Origin: Armatimonadota bacterium
Lineage (GTDB): Bacteria; Armatimonadota; UBA5829; DTLH01
Direction: 5' to 3'
NCBI GenBank assembly: GCA_029551395.1
Contig: JAKPFN010000066.1
Location: 1-64,000, forward strand
Length of the DNA: 64,000 nucleotides
The position numbers and the translations under genes are program-made. Below the pieces are notes generated by a model. It worked only from the letters and a program-made list of their open reading frames with translations. It made no database searches and was not told the DNA's origin. Below are positions 14,113-33,829 of this stretch, in pieces. The first letter of the stretch is position 1; every line of letters starts with the position of its first letter.

Positions 14113-14799
14113 ATGAAAGTAGTTTTGACCGCGTTAGTTGCGGGTGTATTAGCACTCTCGGTGGTTGTGCCAGTCACTGCAGCACCGAACATTTTTGGTA
14201 CTAGTGGATTGATAGAGGTTCCGGATGACAGGGTGCTTCCTACAGGCACGATTGCTCCGGCATTTCACACAATAGTTGATGTGGACATTCTTGGTACCGA
14301 TACTGACTTCAACTTCTTTACGGTAGGGATTGGAATAACAGAGAATCTCGAAGTAAGTGGTGGCGTTGTAGACAACGACGATTCTGAGGTTATTCTTAAT
14401 GCCAAGTATCGGCTGTCGCCAAGAGTAGGCAACCGTCCATCGATTACTATTGGTGTGGTTGATGTAACATCAGACATAGATGACGATCCCAGCTTTTATA
14501 TCCTCTTTGCAAGAGGGTTGACTGGAGTAGCCGAAGATATTACAGATGATGAATCAGTACCTTTGCGCGGCTATCTTGGCTTTGGCTCAGGTCTGTATGA
14601 AGGAGTGTTTGTAGGACTGGAGTGGATGCTTTCACCCAGATTTGTTGGGATGGTTGAATATGTGGATGAAGGTATAACCGGTTCCGACTTTAACGCAGGT
14701 ATTCGTTATGCATTGACAAATCAGCTCAGAATCGATGCAGGTCTTGTAGACCTCGATAGTTTCACAGTCGGTATAAGTTACACTGGTTTTGCCTTCTAA
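14113..14799 (+). CDS. YjbH-like outer-membrane beta-barrel protein (copy 1)
   Basis: 228 residues from ATG 14113, with AGGAGGG nine bases upstream; the frame is open to 14038, but only the inner start gives a signal peptide (MKVVLTALVAGVLALSVVVPVTAA, cleavage after TAA). The mature protein begins APNIFGTSGLIEVPDD, the GLI-x-PD motif of YjbH/PTAR-type barrels. It then alternates strands rich in Gly and aromatics (FFTVGIGITENLEVSGGVV, YLGFGSGLYEGVFVGLEW) and ends in a Phe-terminal strand, SYTGFAF, suitable for Bam-dependent insertion. YjbH proteins are linked to exopolysaccharide export; this copy is much shorter than full YjbH. A close homologue lies immediately downstream. Confidence 0.72.
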   Translation: MKVVLTALVAGVLALSVVVPVTAAPNIFGTSGLIEVPDDRVLPTGTIAPAFHTIVDVDILGTDTDFNFFTVGIGITENLEVSGGVVDNDDSEVILNAKYRLSPRVGNRPSITIGVVDVTSDIDDDPSFYILFARGLTGVAEDITDDESVPLRGYLGFGSGLYEGVFVGLEWMLSPRFVGMVEYVDEGITGSDFNAGIRYALTNQLRIDAGLVDLDSFTVGISYTGFAF

Positions 14800-14810
14800 T
14801 TTAGTGCTAG

Positions 14811-14854
14811 ACAAGCCGGGGCATCCCCTCGAATAAGGAGATACCTCGGCTTGT
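14811..14854 (+). terminator. Hairpin terminator after YjbH-like copy 1
   Basis: ACAAGCCG (14811-14818) pairs perfectly with CGGCTTGT (14847-14854), followed by TTATG. The T-tract is short, so termination may be partial. Confidence 0.5.
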
Positions 14855-15100
14855 TTATGTACTGTGTATAACCTCTAATAAACCTCGAAAACTGCCAATA
14901 GACCGCTTGTATATTACGAAATATCATTGTAGATGACGCAACCTCGGCAATATAGCGCTATCTATTACGTCTGCTTGCTTCAGGAAGTCTTCAAAGTAAG
15001 CGAGGCAATCAGAGGATTTACCAGCAGTGCGAGGAAACATGGATACTCGTGCAGCGAAAGATCATCTGAGACTCGCAGAGGACAAAAAGGAGGTTTAGCT

Positions 15101-16052: not shown

Positions 16053-17939
16053 ATGGGTATTAGAGCGCGTATTGCCGTTCTAACCGCACTGGGGCTTCTT
16101 GTTGCTGTTGGGCTGACATCCATACTCATGCTTAATGGGTTGCGCTCATCCCAGACCAATATGGTACGAGAGCGCATTATAATCGATGCAGAACAGACTG
16201 CGAGAATTGCTGAACCGCATTTGCTGGATATGGACCAGCGTGAGCTGGATGAATTAGTTGAGATGACATCAGGAGGCGGAGTCATCTCAGTACATATAAT
16301 CAATGCAGAGGGACGAATTGTTGCAAGTTCTGAAGAGGATGCCCATGCTGCTGTTACACCCATTGCTTCAATGGTACTGAGAACCGGGCGGCCTGTTATA
16401 GGTCCTGTTAGGAATACAACCTGGGGTGCGGTGCCTATCATTGGGCCTGACAACCGGACTATAGGGGTAGTTGTCGAGGAGATTGACACTTCTGATACGA
16501 TACGCAACTACAGAGCAGCAGAAGATATGGGGATAGCATCTGTAGCGATTGCTGCCATTGCTGGTCTGGGGCTGGCCTATATTCTCGCTTCATTCATAAC
16601 AATGCCGTTGTATTCGCTGCTAAAAGCTATACGGAGTATGGCTGCCGGACAGTATGATGTGCGTGCGCCGATGACTTCTACTCCAGAATTGCGAGAGATT
16701 GCCCAGGCTTTCAACAGTATGGCAATCGCGGTTACAAGGCGGATAAATAATCTCGAAATACTCAACCGCATGGCAGCGGATATCTCTCTGGCTGGAAGTC
16801 CGGCTCATGTTGCAGAGGCTGTCTATTCAACATGTGCTGTTGTATTGGGAGGCGAAGCGAGACTATGGATTTATGAATCTCTTGGCCAGGTCTTGCAGAG
16901 TGTTCCTGTGCCAGGAGGTCCTGGACGGATACAAGCAAATGCTGAAAGCCTTGTAAGCCAGTCAGCACGGGAAGGCAGGATAATAGTAATTGGTAAGGAT
17001 GGGAACCTGCCTCCAGGCACAGCAATAGCTCAGGGTTTGCCTCAAGCAGATACTGCCATTATTATCCCATTGGAAACTCCTACAGGTGTTGTTGGAGTTA
17101 TGTCAGTGAGTTTTGATAAATATCAAGCTTTACAACTGGATCAGGAACAGGCTAACTTTGCAGTTGTAGTTGCCAGTATTGCAGGTCCTGCTGTGGCATC
17201 GATACAACGTGCTGAAGCCCAAGCCAGGTCAGCACGGATGCTGCAACGTATTCTTGTTCCACGTCCGCCTGTGCAAGTGCCAGGAATCAGCGTGGATGCC
17301 AGATATGAACCTGCAGAAGAAATAGGACGGCTTGGCGGTGACTATTACGATTTTATCAGGATATCTGAAGACAGATGGTGTTTCGTGGTAGGAGATGTTG
17401 GAGGCAAAGGACTTCCTGCCGCTCAATTTGCAGCAATGGCTAAGTTTGTTGTGAGGTCGTTTGTGCTTGAGTATGGTTCTCCAGGAGAAGCTCTGTCTCA
17501 TACTAACTCATCTCTTGTTACTCAAATGCCAGGGGAGAGATTCATAACCTTGTTCTGCGGCATATACGATGCACGGACACATATACTACTGGCAGCACGC
17601 GCAGGCCATCCACCGCCAATTGTTTATCACAGTAGAATGGGTACAGTACATGAGCTACGATCATCAGGGCCTGTAGCAGGAGTTTTCCCTGATGCCGAAT
17701 TTCAGGAATTGGAAGAGTTTCTGGAATCTGATGATGTTGTTGTAATCTTTACTGATGGTGTGACGGAAGCCCGTGGTAAGGATGGGCTTTATGGAGAAAA
17801 ACGATTGATAAAGATTCTAATCGAACATGCGGCGTTATCAGCGGAAGAAATTGCAGATGCAATAATGAATGACATCAGAGATTTCTCAGGAGGCAAGCTT
17901 ACGGACGATACTGCATTGGTTGTTATCAAATTGATTTGA
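16053..17939 (+). CDS. Membrane HAMP-GAF-SpoIIE/RsbU-type PP2C serine phosphatase
   Basis: 628 residues. A first membrane helix (about 7-29) and a second (about 160-185) flank an extracytoplasmic sensor region. A HAMP domain (about 185-235: MPLYSLLKAIRSMAAGQYDVRAP), a GAF domain (about 240-385) and a C-terminal SpoIIE-type PP2C domain follow. The PP2C metal motifs are intact: GGDYYDF, GDVGGKGLPAAQFAA, ARAGHPPP, IFTDGVTEARG and TDDTALVV. Such enzymes dephosphorylate STAS anti-anti-sigma factors in partner-switching cascades or set other outputs. No STAS gene is adjacent; the nearest is at 39.6 kb. A GGAGG lies 14 bases before the ATG, an unusually long spacing. Confidence 0.93.
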   Translation: MGIRARIAVLTALGLLVAVGLTSILMLNGLRSSQTNMVRERIIIDAEQTARIAEPHLLDMDQRELDELVEMTSGGGVISVHIINAEGRIVASSEEDAHAAVTPIASMVLRTGRPVIGPVRNTTWGAVPIIGPDNRTIGVVVEEIDTSDTIRNYRAAEDMGIASVAIAAIAGLGLAYILASFITMPLYSLLKAIRSMAAGQYDVRAPMTSTPELREIAQAFNSMAIAVTRRINNLEILNRMAADISLAGSPAHVAEAVYSTCAVVLGGEARLWIYESLGQVLQSVPVPGGPGRIQANAESLVSQSAREGRIIVIGKDGNLPPGTAIAQGLPQADTAIIIPLETPTGVVGVMSVSFDKYQALQLDQEQANFAVVVASIAGPAVASIQRAEAQARSARMLQRILVPRPPVQVPGISVDARYEPAEEIGRLGGDYYDFIRISEDRWCFVVGDVGGKGLPAAQFAAMAKFVVRSFVLEYGSPGEALSHTNSSLVTQMPGERFITLFCGIYDARTHILLAARAGHPPPIVYHSRMGTVHELRSSGPVAGVFPDAEFQELEEFLESDDVVVIFTDGVTEARGKDGLYGEKRLIKILIEHAALSAEEIADAIMNDIRDFSGGKLTDDTALVVIKLI

Positions 17940-18105
17940 GTGTAATGTCAGCTTCAGGTGATTTAGCAAGGTTTTTCCTTCAGGCTGTAATCAGAGATGT
18001 TCTGTTAACCAGTTCAAATTGGGAACGAAATTTTCATGATGCCAGTCATGTGAAGTAAGGGGAGAACAGCAGCATTAGAACCTTTACACGGAATCAGCTC
18101 AGCCG

Positions 18106-18135
18106 TTGACCGGCTCTTTGATCGCATGCTATAAT
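18106..18135 (+). promoter_or_regulatory. Strong sigma70-type promoter upstream of structured RNA and histidine kinase
   Basis: TTGACC (18106-18111), an 18-bp spacer and a perfect TATAAT (18130-18135). Predicted transcription start near 18142. The 166 bases between the phosphatase stop and this promoter (17940-18105) show nothing else recognisable. Confidence 0.7.
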
Positions 18136-18141
18136 TCATTT

Positions 18142-18312
18142 GTTGAGATAGTTCCTCCGTACGAACCGGGCAGGGGATTCTGCTGAAGCTGGTCTAAACG
18201 GTTCGATGCTCAGCGCGGTAATTTCCCCCAAGCAGCCGCGCATCCGGTGGGTTCCTCAGCCCGCCTGCGCGTCTGCCAACGTTGTGCTGAGTAAGAGGTT
18301 CAGCTGGCTGAA
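18142..18312 (+). ncRNA. Unidentified structured RNA or leader with possible pseudoknot
   Basis: GC-rich 170-nt segment between a strong promoter and the kinase start codon. P1 pairs CGAACCG (18162-18168) with CGGTTCG (18199-18205) and encloses GCAG/CTGC (18170-18173/18180-18183). P2 pairs CTCAGC (18209-18214) with GCTGAG (18286-18291) and encloses P3: GCAG/CTGC, GCGC/GCGC and GGTGGG/CCCGCC between 18232 and 18276. GGGGA (18173-18177) can pair with TCCCC (18224-18228), a five-pair pseudoknot. No T-run follows and the kinase lacks a well-placed Shine-Dalgarno. A cis-acting leader is plausible; a free-standing RNA cannot be excluded. It does not match the riboswitch, SRP, tmRNA or RNase P consensus motifs I know. 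Confidence 0.45.
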
Positions 18313-20118
18313 ATGAGTGAGGTAGAGGTCTTGGACAATCAGGAATTACAGTCCCTAAAAGCGCGCATCGAGGCTCTTGAGAGAGAACTCGATGAGAAAA
18401 GGGTAGCTATTAGTGCTCTTGAACGGGCAAACAAGCAGCTTGAGGACAAGGTTCGCGCTTCCGAAGTCACGGAGGGACCTGCATCCCTCACGGAACTTGA
18501 AGAGACACTGAAGAGACTGGTCTTCAGAGTTGCTATGATACTGCAGGCTGAAAAATGCGTTTTCATGCTCTTTGATAAAGACAATGGAGAGCTTGTTGCA
18601 TCTAAACCTGCGTTTGGACTGACAGATGAAGAAGTCAAAAAGTTCCGCGTAAGGGCTACTCAGGGAATATCCGGAGAAGTATATCGAGATCAGAGGCCTG
18701 TCATTCTCTATGATGCGGTCAATGATCCAAGAACAGTTAAAGAGAATGTAGGACTGCTCAATATCCATAACGGCGTATGTGTGCCGCTGGTCATCGAAAA
18801 ACGCGACGAGGACACCAACAAGGTTATAGAAACAAAACCTATTGGTGTCTTACATGTTTTTAACAAGCGAGATGGCAATGTGTTTATACAGGAGGACGTA
18901 AACCTCCTGACCAGACTTTCGAAGAATGCTGCTTCGGTCATTGCAAGCGCTGCGATGTATCGAGAAGTTCTGGAAGAAAAAGAAGAACTCGAAAGCATCA
19001 TCGAGAGCGTCTACGCCGGACTCCTTATGGTCAACAAATCCGGAAGAATCATGCAGATGAACGCTTCTGCGCGAACAATGCTTGGTATTCAAAATGGTGA
19101 TGTGACCAGCAGGCTTTATGAGGATGTTATCCTGCAGGATAGAGTCAAGGAGATACTTCGTTCGTCTCTTGAAGAGTCTTCGGAGGTCGCCGAAGAAGTC
19201 TCTGTCCGGCTTCCGGAAGATGAAGACGATGAGAAGATCTATCAGGTGCAGAGTGCTCTTGTTCGAGGAGACGATCAGCAGGTAATCGGCGTCGTTGCTA
19301 TCTTCAATGATATTACCGAGATCAGAAGTATCGAGCGGATGAAGACTGCATTCGTTTCTACCGTGTCTCACGAACTTAGGACACCACTGACCTCCATCAA
19401 GGGCTTTATTTCCACACTTCTACAGGATGAGGACGGATCAGCCTTTGACCATGAGACAGTGCGTGAGTTCTACACGATTATCGATACCGAATGCGACCGA
19501 CTGACAAGGCTTATCAGCGACCTGCTCAATGTATCCAGAATCGAAGCCGGACGCGCACTTGATCTGAACCCGAAACCTGTAACATTAGAGCCGTTGATCG
19601 AGAAAGTCGTAAGCGTTCAGCGCAGTTACACGAACAAGCATGAGCTGGTAACGGATATTCTGGATAAGCTACCGGTCATAGTAGCTGACGAAGACAAGGT
19701 GGATCAGATATTGACGAACCTCACTAACAACGCGATCAAATACTCGCCTAAAGGTGGGGAAGTCCGTATCCGCGCAGAGCTTGATGGTGATCTGGTAAGG
19801 ATTTCGGTCTCAGACCAGGGTATGGGAATCCCCAAAGAACACCTTGCCAAGGTATTTGATCGCTTCCACAGGATCGATAACCGCGATACCAGAGAGGTAG
19901 GCGGAACTGGAATTGGGTTGTATCTCGTAAAACACCTTGTAGAAGCCCATGGCGGTAAGATTTGGGTAGAAAGCGAAGTCGGCAAGGGATCCAGCTTCAT
20001 ATTCGAGCTGCCGAAGTGTCCGCCGCAGTTTGCGGAGGAGCATGAGCAGTTAATTGCCGGCAGTGCTGGTCAGGGAGGTTCAATGCAGCCCGGTATGCCT
20101 CCTGCTGCTATGAACTAA
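18313..20118 (+). CDS. Cytoplasmic sensor histidine kinase (coiled coil-GAF-PAS-HisKA-HATPase)
   Basis: 601 residues without membrane segments. An N-terminal coiled coil (about 8-55) is followed by a GAF domain (about 60-220) and a PAS domain (about 230-345). HisKA carries the phospho-acceptor near H353 in STVSHELRTPLTSIKGF. HATPase_c has the N-box LTNLTNNAIKYSPKGG, G1 SDQGMGIP, F-box VFDRFHRID and G2 GGTGIGLYLVKHL. The short C-terminal tail is Gly/Pro/Met-rich. The signal is cytoplasmic, possibly a small ligand bound by GAF. No response regulator is adjacent, so it is an orphan kinase; the receiver-PilZ protein at 4-5 kb is the only receiver in the window. The start has no well-spaced Shine-Dalgarno and follows a structured leader. 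Confidence 0.95.
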   Translation: MSEVEVLDNQELQSLKARIEALERELDEKRVAISALERANKQLEDKVRASEVTEGPASLTELEETLKRLVFRVAMILQAEKCVFMLFDKDNGELVASKPAFGLTDEEVKKFRVRATQGISGEVYRDQRPVILYDAVNDPRTVKENVGLLNIHNGVCVPLVIEKRDEDTNKVIETKPIGVLHVFNKRDGNVFIQEDVNLLTRLSKNAASVIASAAMYREVLEEKEELESIIESVYAGLLMVNKSGRIMQMNASARTMLGIQNGDVTSRLYEDVILQDRVKEILRSSLEESSEVAEEVSVRLPEDEDDEKIYQVQSALVRGDDQQVIGVVAIFNDITEIRSIERMKTAFVSTVSHELRTPLTSIKGFISTLLQDEDGSAFDHETVREFYTIIDTECDRLTRLISDLLNVSRIEAGRALDLNPKPVTLEPLIEKVVSVQRSYTNKHELVTDILDKLPVIVADEDKVDQILTNLTNNAIKYSPKGGEVRIRAELDGDLVRISVSDQGMGIPKEHLAKVFDRFHRIDNRDTREVGGTGIGLYLVKHLVEAHGGKIWVESEVGKGSSFIFELPKCPPQFAEEHEQLIAGSAGQGGSMQPGMPPAAMN

Positions 20119-32349: not shown

Positions 32350-33471
32350 TCAAACCTCTTTCCGGGCCAGCGAAGCAAACCTCTCCGGCAGTTCTGAGAG
32401 AGAGAATTCAAAGGCAGCATCCTCAAAACCTGCAGGGATGTTAGTGCGGGTCTTGGGGATGATTTCTGCATGAAGATGGCCTATTACATCTCCGGTCCTT
32501 ACAGCTATATTATACGCCGGAATTTCTCCAAATATCTGGCGATACATCTGAATTGCCGTTTTGAGGGCTTCTGCAAAGTCCTTTCGCACCTGGTCAGTCA
32601 AATCTGAGATTCTGGCCGGACAGGTTTCTTTTTCAGGTTGAACCGAAACCAGCAGGCTGTAGTTACGTGCAGGCGCTGGATATGCTCCAAGCCATACTTT
32701 CTGGCTGTTTCCAAGCTGTTTTATGGTGAAGTTTCCGTCTTTCAGCACTTCACAGACACCACAACCGTTGGCCTTGCGTCGGGATTGGATTGTCTCGTAC
32801 AGCTTTGGCGGTCGCATAACATAGATCTGGCTGTGGAAGCAGCTTACACTTTGTCCGGATTCAGGGCGACGTCCTCCGTTGATGAAAGGCACAGCGACAA
32901 GCCCGTTTTCTAAAGCCAGCCGCTCGAGCACCTGCCAGGATGCTATCACTGAATCAACTACTGTTGTTGGCATGTCTGCAAGGTCCCGGTAGTGGTAGTC
33001 TGGATGAACAGCCGTTACGTAGCAGTTGCCAGGTTCGTTGGCTCCAAGCGCCGGAGTAAGATTGTAGAAGGTTCTAGACCTCCATTCGGAAGGAAAAGTC
33101 GTGCCTCCAAGTGCGCCGACAAGCCCGTAATGGTCTCCCAGCTTTCCGGGGGTCTTTCCCGGTTGGCTCCAGTATTCCGCTGCTGCCTGCAGGGACTTAT
33201 CTTCGTCTTCTACTACCAACTGGCCTTCTTCATCGAAGTAGAAAAGGGTAGAAGGAGTCCGCCCTGTGCAGAAAAAGCAGTTATCTCTTGGAGTAACCTT
33301 TGGTGGAGCTTCACCTGATACTTCAAAATGCCGTGCAGCTCTGAGCGGATTGATAATTACCTGCCTGCCGGTGATAGGGTCTTCCCTTCTGATGCTCTGA
33401 TTGCCTCTGCACTGCTGGTCTGCTGTTGACTCTATTCTTTGCTCGAGCTTTTCTAACTGCTGCTTGTTCAA
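32350..33471 (-). CDS. Galactose-1-phosphate uridylyltransferase-like (HIT superfamily) protein
   Basis: 373 residues from TTG 33471 with GGAGG five bases upstream. GalT-type features: a zinc CxxC in NCFFCTGRTPS, the active-site region SVSCFHSQIYVM and the second HIT-like GHLHAEIIPKTR. The usual HPHxQ is CFHSQ here: the nucleophile His and Gln are kept, while the first His, a zinc ligand in E. coli GalT, is replaced by Cys. A second pair, CGVC, lies near residue 250. It therefore probably transfers nucleotidyl groups between sugar phosphates, but the substrate is uncertain. It is the first gene after the c-di-AMP riboswitch. Confidence 0.75.
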   Translation of the reverse strand: MNKQQLEKLEQRIESTADQQCRGNQSIRREDPITGRQVIINPLRAARHFEVSGEAPPKVTPRDNCFFCTGRTPSTLFYFDEEGQLVVEDEDKSLQAAAEYWSQPGKTPGKLGDHYGLVGALGGTTFPSEWRSRTFYNLTPALGANEPGNCYVTAVHPDYHYRDLADMPTTVVDSVIASWQVLERLALENGLVAVPFINGGRRPESGQSVSCFHSQIYVMRPPKLYETIQSRRKANGCGVCEVLKDGNFTIKQLGNSQKVWLGAYPAPARNYSLLVSVQPEKETCPARISDLTDQVRKDFAEALKTAIQMYRQIFGEIPAYNIAVRTGDVIGHLHAEIIPKTRTNIPAGFEDAAFEFSLSELPERFASLARKEV

Positions 33472-33601: not shown

Positions 33602-33735
33602 GGTGACTTCCACCGCGCCTACGAGGTTAGCTGTCGGGCTAGGACCGGAAGCTGCCCTTCCTTTAATACTACAAGGATTCGCCCCCAAATCTCGGGTTCC
33701 CCCGATCTCCAATATTCCGGAGACTCGGCGCTAGG
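33602..33735 (-). promoter_or_regulatory. c-di-AMP (ydaO/yuaA-type) riboswitch
   Basis: Read on the minus strand, the conserved blocks appear in order: GCGCCGAGTC, GGGGGAACC, TTGGGGGCGAATCC, AGGGCAGC, then CCCGACAGCTAACCTCGTAG and GCG. These match the ydaO/yuaA aptamer, which binds cyclic di-AMP and usually switches genes off. It lies in a leader starting near 33822 from a clear promoter, with a terminator-like hairpin between it and the GalT-like gene. Known targets are potassium transport and cell-wall genes, so control of a GalT-membrane protein-gpsA operon is unusual. The rest of the gap to 33984 holds only the promoter. Confidence 0.92.
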
Positions 33736-33829
33736 TTGTCTATTCAGTTGTCCGTTATTCAGTTGTAGCCGATATTAAGTTGTGGTCTATATGCTGTTAT
33801 CTGCAGGAAGCTTGCTCCCTACACTATAT

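Follow-up and report, generated by a model that had tools for sequence, protein, structure and literature searches.

A predicted lineage-specific structured 5′ leader upstream of a histidine kinase gene in an Armatimonadota bacterium

The kinase locus, its promoter and its translation start

The stretch of DNA analysed here—64,000 nucleotides, hereafter called the window—represents contig C32 of an Armatimonadota MAG assembly (3.58 Mb, 165 contigs). The feature under study lies between a HAMP-SpoIIE phosphatase gene, which ends at 17939, and a histidine kinase gene, the ORF of which was first called as 18313–20118. Pfam assigns the domain order GAF-PAS-HisKA-HATPase_c to the kinase, as well as the domains of the phosphatase and of the zinc-ribbon/TPR protein encoded downstream of the kinase. 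The kinase is matched in 56 of the 61 genomes of a phylum sample. The features of the locus are as follows.

18106–18135, + strand: predicted sigma-70-type promoter, TTGACC-18-TATAAT with an extended -10 (TG)
18142–18305, + strand: GC-rich structured 5′ leader, predicted to form a three-way junction closed by the P0 stem; only copy in 291 phylum genomes
18162–18205, + strand: predicted P1 stem with an inner hairpin (z of this part, only −1.56) and a possible pairing of its GGGGA with UCCCC downstream
18207–18293, + strand: predicted long P2/P3 arm, clearly non-random in stability (z = −5.44 and −5.76, and −4.85 in a scan of the window)
18319–18324, + strand: probable ribosome-binding site of the kinase, GAGGTA, 3′ of the fold and outside it
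18331–20118, + strand: gene of the GAF-PAS-HisKA-HATPase_c histidine kinase, with TTG 18331 as the probable start and ATG 18313 as the less probable one

The promoter consists of TTGACC at 18106, an 18-nt spacer and TATAAT at 18130–18135, with TG preceding the -10 box, and is the sole promoter-like match within 17900–18500. In 18 of the 20 class relatives (all but L085 and L093), the gene of this kinase is likewise preceded by an equivalent promoter, with 10 or 11 of the 12 consensus bases; for each of these sites, no more than 3 of 100 shuffles attained the same score level. Moreover, TTGACC-N17/18-TATAAT occurs 19 times in the genome, as compared to zero times for the reversed control. The initial annotation had described a near-consensus promoter at this place, and both the conservation and the genome-wide counts bear it out. 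As judged from this conservation with the kinase, the predicted promoter is real and belongs to the kinase gene, which answers the worry that the region might be transcribed only from the upstream phosphatase gene.

Where does the translation of the kinase begin? In 12 class relatives, the gene is preceded by GAGGTA, a short spacer and TTG, at the standard distance. The window sequence GAGGTAGAGGTCTTG contains GAGGTA at 18319–18324 and TTG at 18331, and the conserved arrangement in the relatives thus points to these as the ribosome-binding site and the start codon. The kinase therefore probably starts at TTG 18331 rather than at ATG 18313. Within the order, TTG seems to be the customary start codon of this gene. 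The window and the same-family genome G001 both have an ATG slightly further upstream, so an ATG start keeps some possibility. The earlier view that the kinase lacks a well-placed ribosome-binding site stems from a start-codon error, as GAGGTA probably serves TTG 18331.

An ORF of 36 amino acids (18206–18316) ends over the upstream ATG of the kinase and, as a leader peptide, would couple translation. It spans P2/P3 and stops just before the ribosome-binding site of the kinase. However, its ATG at 18206 is not preceded by an evident ribosome-binding site, the peptide has no homologue, and an ATG ORF of equal length arises in 16.8% of shuffles. We set this ORF aside because about 17% of the shuffles match its length, and consider a leader peptide extremely unlikely.

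Elsewhere in the window, a very strong hairpin on both strands (14785–14893) lies between two similar genes, of which the first ends at 14799 and the next, with a weak Pfam match to YjbH, starts at 14933; this hairpin is perhaps a bidirectional terminator. A c-di-AMP (ydaO/yuaA) riboswitch is found at 33602–33740 on the minus strand (83.9 bits), with the hairpin-like stretch AGGCCGCAGCGCAAGTTGCGGCCTTT on its 3′ side, and is followed by a 373-aa ORF (32350–33471, minus strand) with no Pfam match.

The predicted fold of the leader

In the predicted structure, P1 pairs 18162–18168 with 18199–18205 and encloses an inner hairpin, while P2 pairs 18207–18216 with 18284–18293 and carries a stacked arm of three stems. 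An outer stem, P0 (18142–18147 with 18299–18304, and 18154–18157 with 18295–18298), joins both domains as a three-way junction, the 5′ end of which coincides with the predicted transcription start (18142). The whole, 18142–18305, has a folding energy of −66.5 kcal/mol (z = −2.62, with 3 of 200 shuffles as stable), and the 171 nt as originally delimited have z = −1.67 (10 of 200 shuffles as stable). For the arm at 18207–18293, the energy is −44 kcal/mol and none of 200 shuffles is as stable, although the z-score of −5.44 is inflated, since this sub-region was picked after the fold was seen. A scan of the window in 87-nt stretches, 5814 in total over the two strands, gave the arm z = −4.85, a level that about 0.7% of the stretches reach. 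Of the stretches with z of about −5, those inspected are for the most part hairpins that resemble terminators and lie where genes end. The P2/P3 arm is real, yet, given this frequency, it is not unique within the window. Both domains of the fold first proposed—P1 with its inner hairpin and P2 with its three-stem arm—are thus recovered, with a significance that is strong for the arm and weaker for the whole.

The leader also stands out in composition, with a GC content of 0.59 versus 0.475 for the window, and only 0.18% of 171-nt segments are as GC-rich. Among the 18 TTGACC-N-TATAAT promoters with enough downstream sequence for comparison, the window leader has the highest GC content and the lowest energy. 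Three other stretches behind such promoters have z ≤ −4, stronger than that of the window leader, and structured stretches in this position are therefore not rare in the genome. L131 (G000:C130:3902–4830) and L130 (G000:C129:6300–7200) lie behind TTGACC-N-TATAAT promoters and have z-scores of −5.0 and −4.0, respectively; neither has an Rfam match.

A pseudoknot had been proposed between the P1 inner loop and a downstream segment, and the complementarity indeed exists, as GGGGA (18173–18177) and TCCCC (18224–18228) are both present. However, GGGGA is partly inside the inner stem of the MFE structure, and an equally good pairing of a loop with a single strand is found in 22 of 400 shuffled leaders (5.5%).

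The predicted pairing of the ribosome-binding site, 18319–18324, is weak, shifts with the length of the folded transcript and is average for shuffles: 68.5% of the shuffled leaders match or exceed the window leader in their pairing with the site. The suggestion that the RNA controls translation in place of a missing ribosome-binding site is not supported, as the site exists, is outside the fold and pairs no more than in shuffles. A thermometer would hold the site in a hairpin that melts with temperature; here, the site lies 3′ of the stable fold and its predicted pairing is weak.

Homologues, known RNA families and the leaders of relatives

Blastn against 60 relatives found no homologue of the leader, which is single copy in its own genome. 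A covariance model built from this one sequence (its underlying alignment being the same sequence twice), which is weak for distant homologues and from which divergent relatives may escape, found only the window copy when 290 other phylum genomes were searched, two marginal hits aside. Of these two hits among 291 genomes, one is in G213 (E = 0.05) and the other in G098 (E = 0.08). Both are taken as chance; by eye, the former appears to lie inside a coding region. In the kinase loci tried, the model had no match beyond the window leader. As neither method yielded a homologue, there are no sequences with which to count covariation.

The comparison with Rfam (4227 families), at both gathering and permissive thresholds, placed no family over the leader, in agreement with the initial statement that it matches no recognised RNA family. 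The only match over it is OxyS, at 13.8 bits (gathering threshold, 75) and E = 3.4, and the leaders of the relatives are likewise without an Rfam match. The leader resembles 6S RNA (RF00013) in its length, about 165–190 nt, and in its long imperfect hairpin arm, but the check for this family, which the initial annotation had called for, located the 6S gene of the genome on another contig (G000:C41:1898–2087, 74.4 bits) and none within 17900–18600 up to E = 10. The leader does not match tmRNA either, and a literature search found nothing relevant.

These comparisons bear on the reading of the feature as a free small RNA, which would have its own promoter and be freed by processing ahead of the kinase. 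The strong predicted promoter at 18106–18135 and the compact fold beginning at the predicted +1 fit such an RNA. However, no intrinsic terminator was found in the segment leading from the fold to the kinase gene, where a small RNA would have its 3′ end, and the leader, which is not conserved, belongs neither to 6S or tmRNA nor to any other Rfam family. A free small RNA, as suggested initially, is therefore unsupported and very unlikely.

What precedes the same kinase in the relatives? In the same-family genome G001, the kinase of which is 81% identical, the promoter is the same TTGACC-18-TATAAT and only about 30 nt separate the -10 box from the ribosome-binding site. The kinase leaders of the class are between about 30 and 190 nt long, and none has a fold in common with the window leader. 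By sequence comparison, a GC-rich segment of roughly 150 nt, predicted to fold strongly, is present in the window lineage and absent from the nearest sequenced relative; this could reflect loss there instead of gain here, one relative being a small sample.

This absence from G001 is also consistent with a neutral insertion or remnant that came to lie behind the -10 box and ahead of the ribosome-binding site, for example one left by a mobile or palindromic element that has since been lost. The GC content of 0.59 amid a neighbourhood of 0.42–0.48 and the arrangement of the leader, largely as one long imperfect inverted repeat, point the same way. Against such an origin, the leader is single copy, and its own genome, phages, plasmids and viral contigs contain only short chance matches: blastn against phages and plasmids returned short pieces of 88% identity (E = 0.04 to 0.5), and the viral contigs share no 20-mer with the leader. 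We regard an insertion as unlikely.

In six leaders of the sister family f2, a GC-rich hairpin lies between the promoter and the kinase, with AUUUUCUUU or a similar stretch directly behind it. Five belong to genus g3 (L114 in G002, L115 in G004, L076 in G014, L117 in G015 and L116 in G017) and one to genus g8 (L071 in G010). A hairpin with a U-tract is expected in 5–12% of shuffles for each leader. G002, G004 and G017 also have in common an outer helix, in which GGGCY pairs with GGCCC or AGCCC further downstream, three sequences being too few to claim covariation. From its sequence, this arrangement looks like premature termination control by an attenuator. The f2 leaders and the window leader have the same promoter, kinase, ribosome-binding site and TTG start, whereas the hairpin and U-tract are absent from the window leader. 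The model of the f2 leaders, R2, has no match in the window genome.

A passive leader or a regulatory RNA

The evidence points to a structured 5′ leader that is real, specific to its lineage and an orphan. The readings as a riboswitch, a thermometer or a small RNA are unsupported, though they keep some probability. With a probability of about 0.5, we propose that the feature is the untranslated 5′ leader (about 18142–18330) of the mRNA for a GAF-PAS histidine kinase that occurs throughout the phylum, with the kinase's own conserved promoter and a generic action. Transcription would start at about 18142, and the 5′ end of the RNA would fold into the P0/P1/P2 junction, which may slow 5′-dependent decay or mildly tune expression. 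Ribosomes would then initiate at GAGGTA...TTG, downstream of the fold, and the leader would sense neither ligand nor partner. Since the leader is without a terminator, it is unlikely to act as an attenuator through intrinsic termination.

On balance, such a passive leader, structured and lineage-specific in origin, is favoured, as the predicted promoter is conserved with the kinase although the leaders differ. Conversely, a P2/P3 arm of this predicted stability and a stem closing at the predicted +1 seem to exceed the needs of a neutral leader. Both recur in regulatory RNAs, and by this analogy they would count against a plain leader.

Could the leader instead be a lineage-specific cis-regulatory RNA, either a riboswitch or a protein-bound leader? 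In such an RNA, the P1 loop would dock into the P2 internal loop, and the P0 pairing 18154–18157/18295–18298 would compete with the pairing of the same CCUC (18154–18157) to the GAGG of the ribosome-binding site at 18319–18322. The arm (z = −5.4), the closed junction at the predicted +1 and the GGGGA/UCCCC complement are consistent with this reading, and the P0 and anti-ribosome-site states are within about 1 kcal/mol of each other in most of the contexts tried. In addition, the conserved terminators in other leaders of the kinase in the order make leader control plausible. Nevertheless, the 60 genomes searched by blastn and the 290 searched with the covariance model provided no homologue and hence no covariation, the pairing of the ribosome-binding site is at a level that most shuffles reach, the pseudoknot is at the 5.5% chance level, and the leader is missing from the nearest relative. 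Like the riboswitches and cis-regulatory leaders of Rfam, the window leader is promoter-proximal, junction-forming, GC-rich and 5′ of one gene, with a possible loop contact; unlike them, it is without an Rfam match, conservation, covariation or a terminator, and the ribosome-binding site is outside its fold. We consider cis-regulation a tentative and somewhat unlikely reading.

The switch involving the anti-ribosome-site pairing failed the shuffle control in spite of the near-equal energies. A translational switch is thus possible on paper and is not favoured by the data. A young riboswitch-like leader, in which the three-way junction and a pseudoknot of the P1 loop with the P2 internal loop would toggle CCUC between the decoy GAGG at 18295–18298 and the GAGG of the site at 18319–18322, is distinctly improbable.

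If the feature is the passive leader that we favour, it would matter little by itself: the leader of this kinase would turn over quickly, while the promoter and the ribosome-binding site stay. Should the fold control the kinase, it would represent a regulatory RNA seen in just one lineage. Moreover, the f2 leaders in sister genera, with their terminators, point to this kinase as a promising gene in which to seek premature termination control in Armatimonadota.
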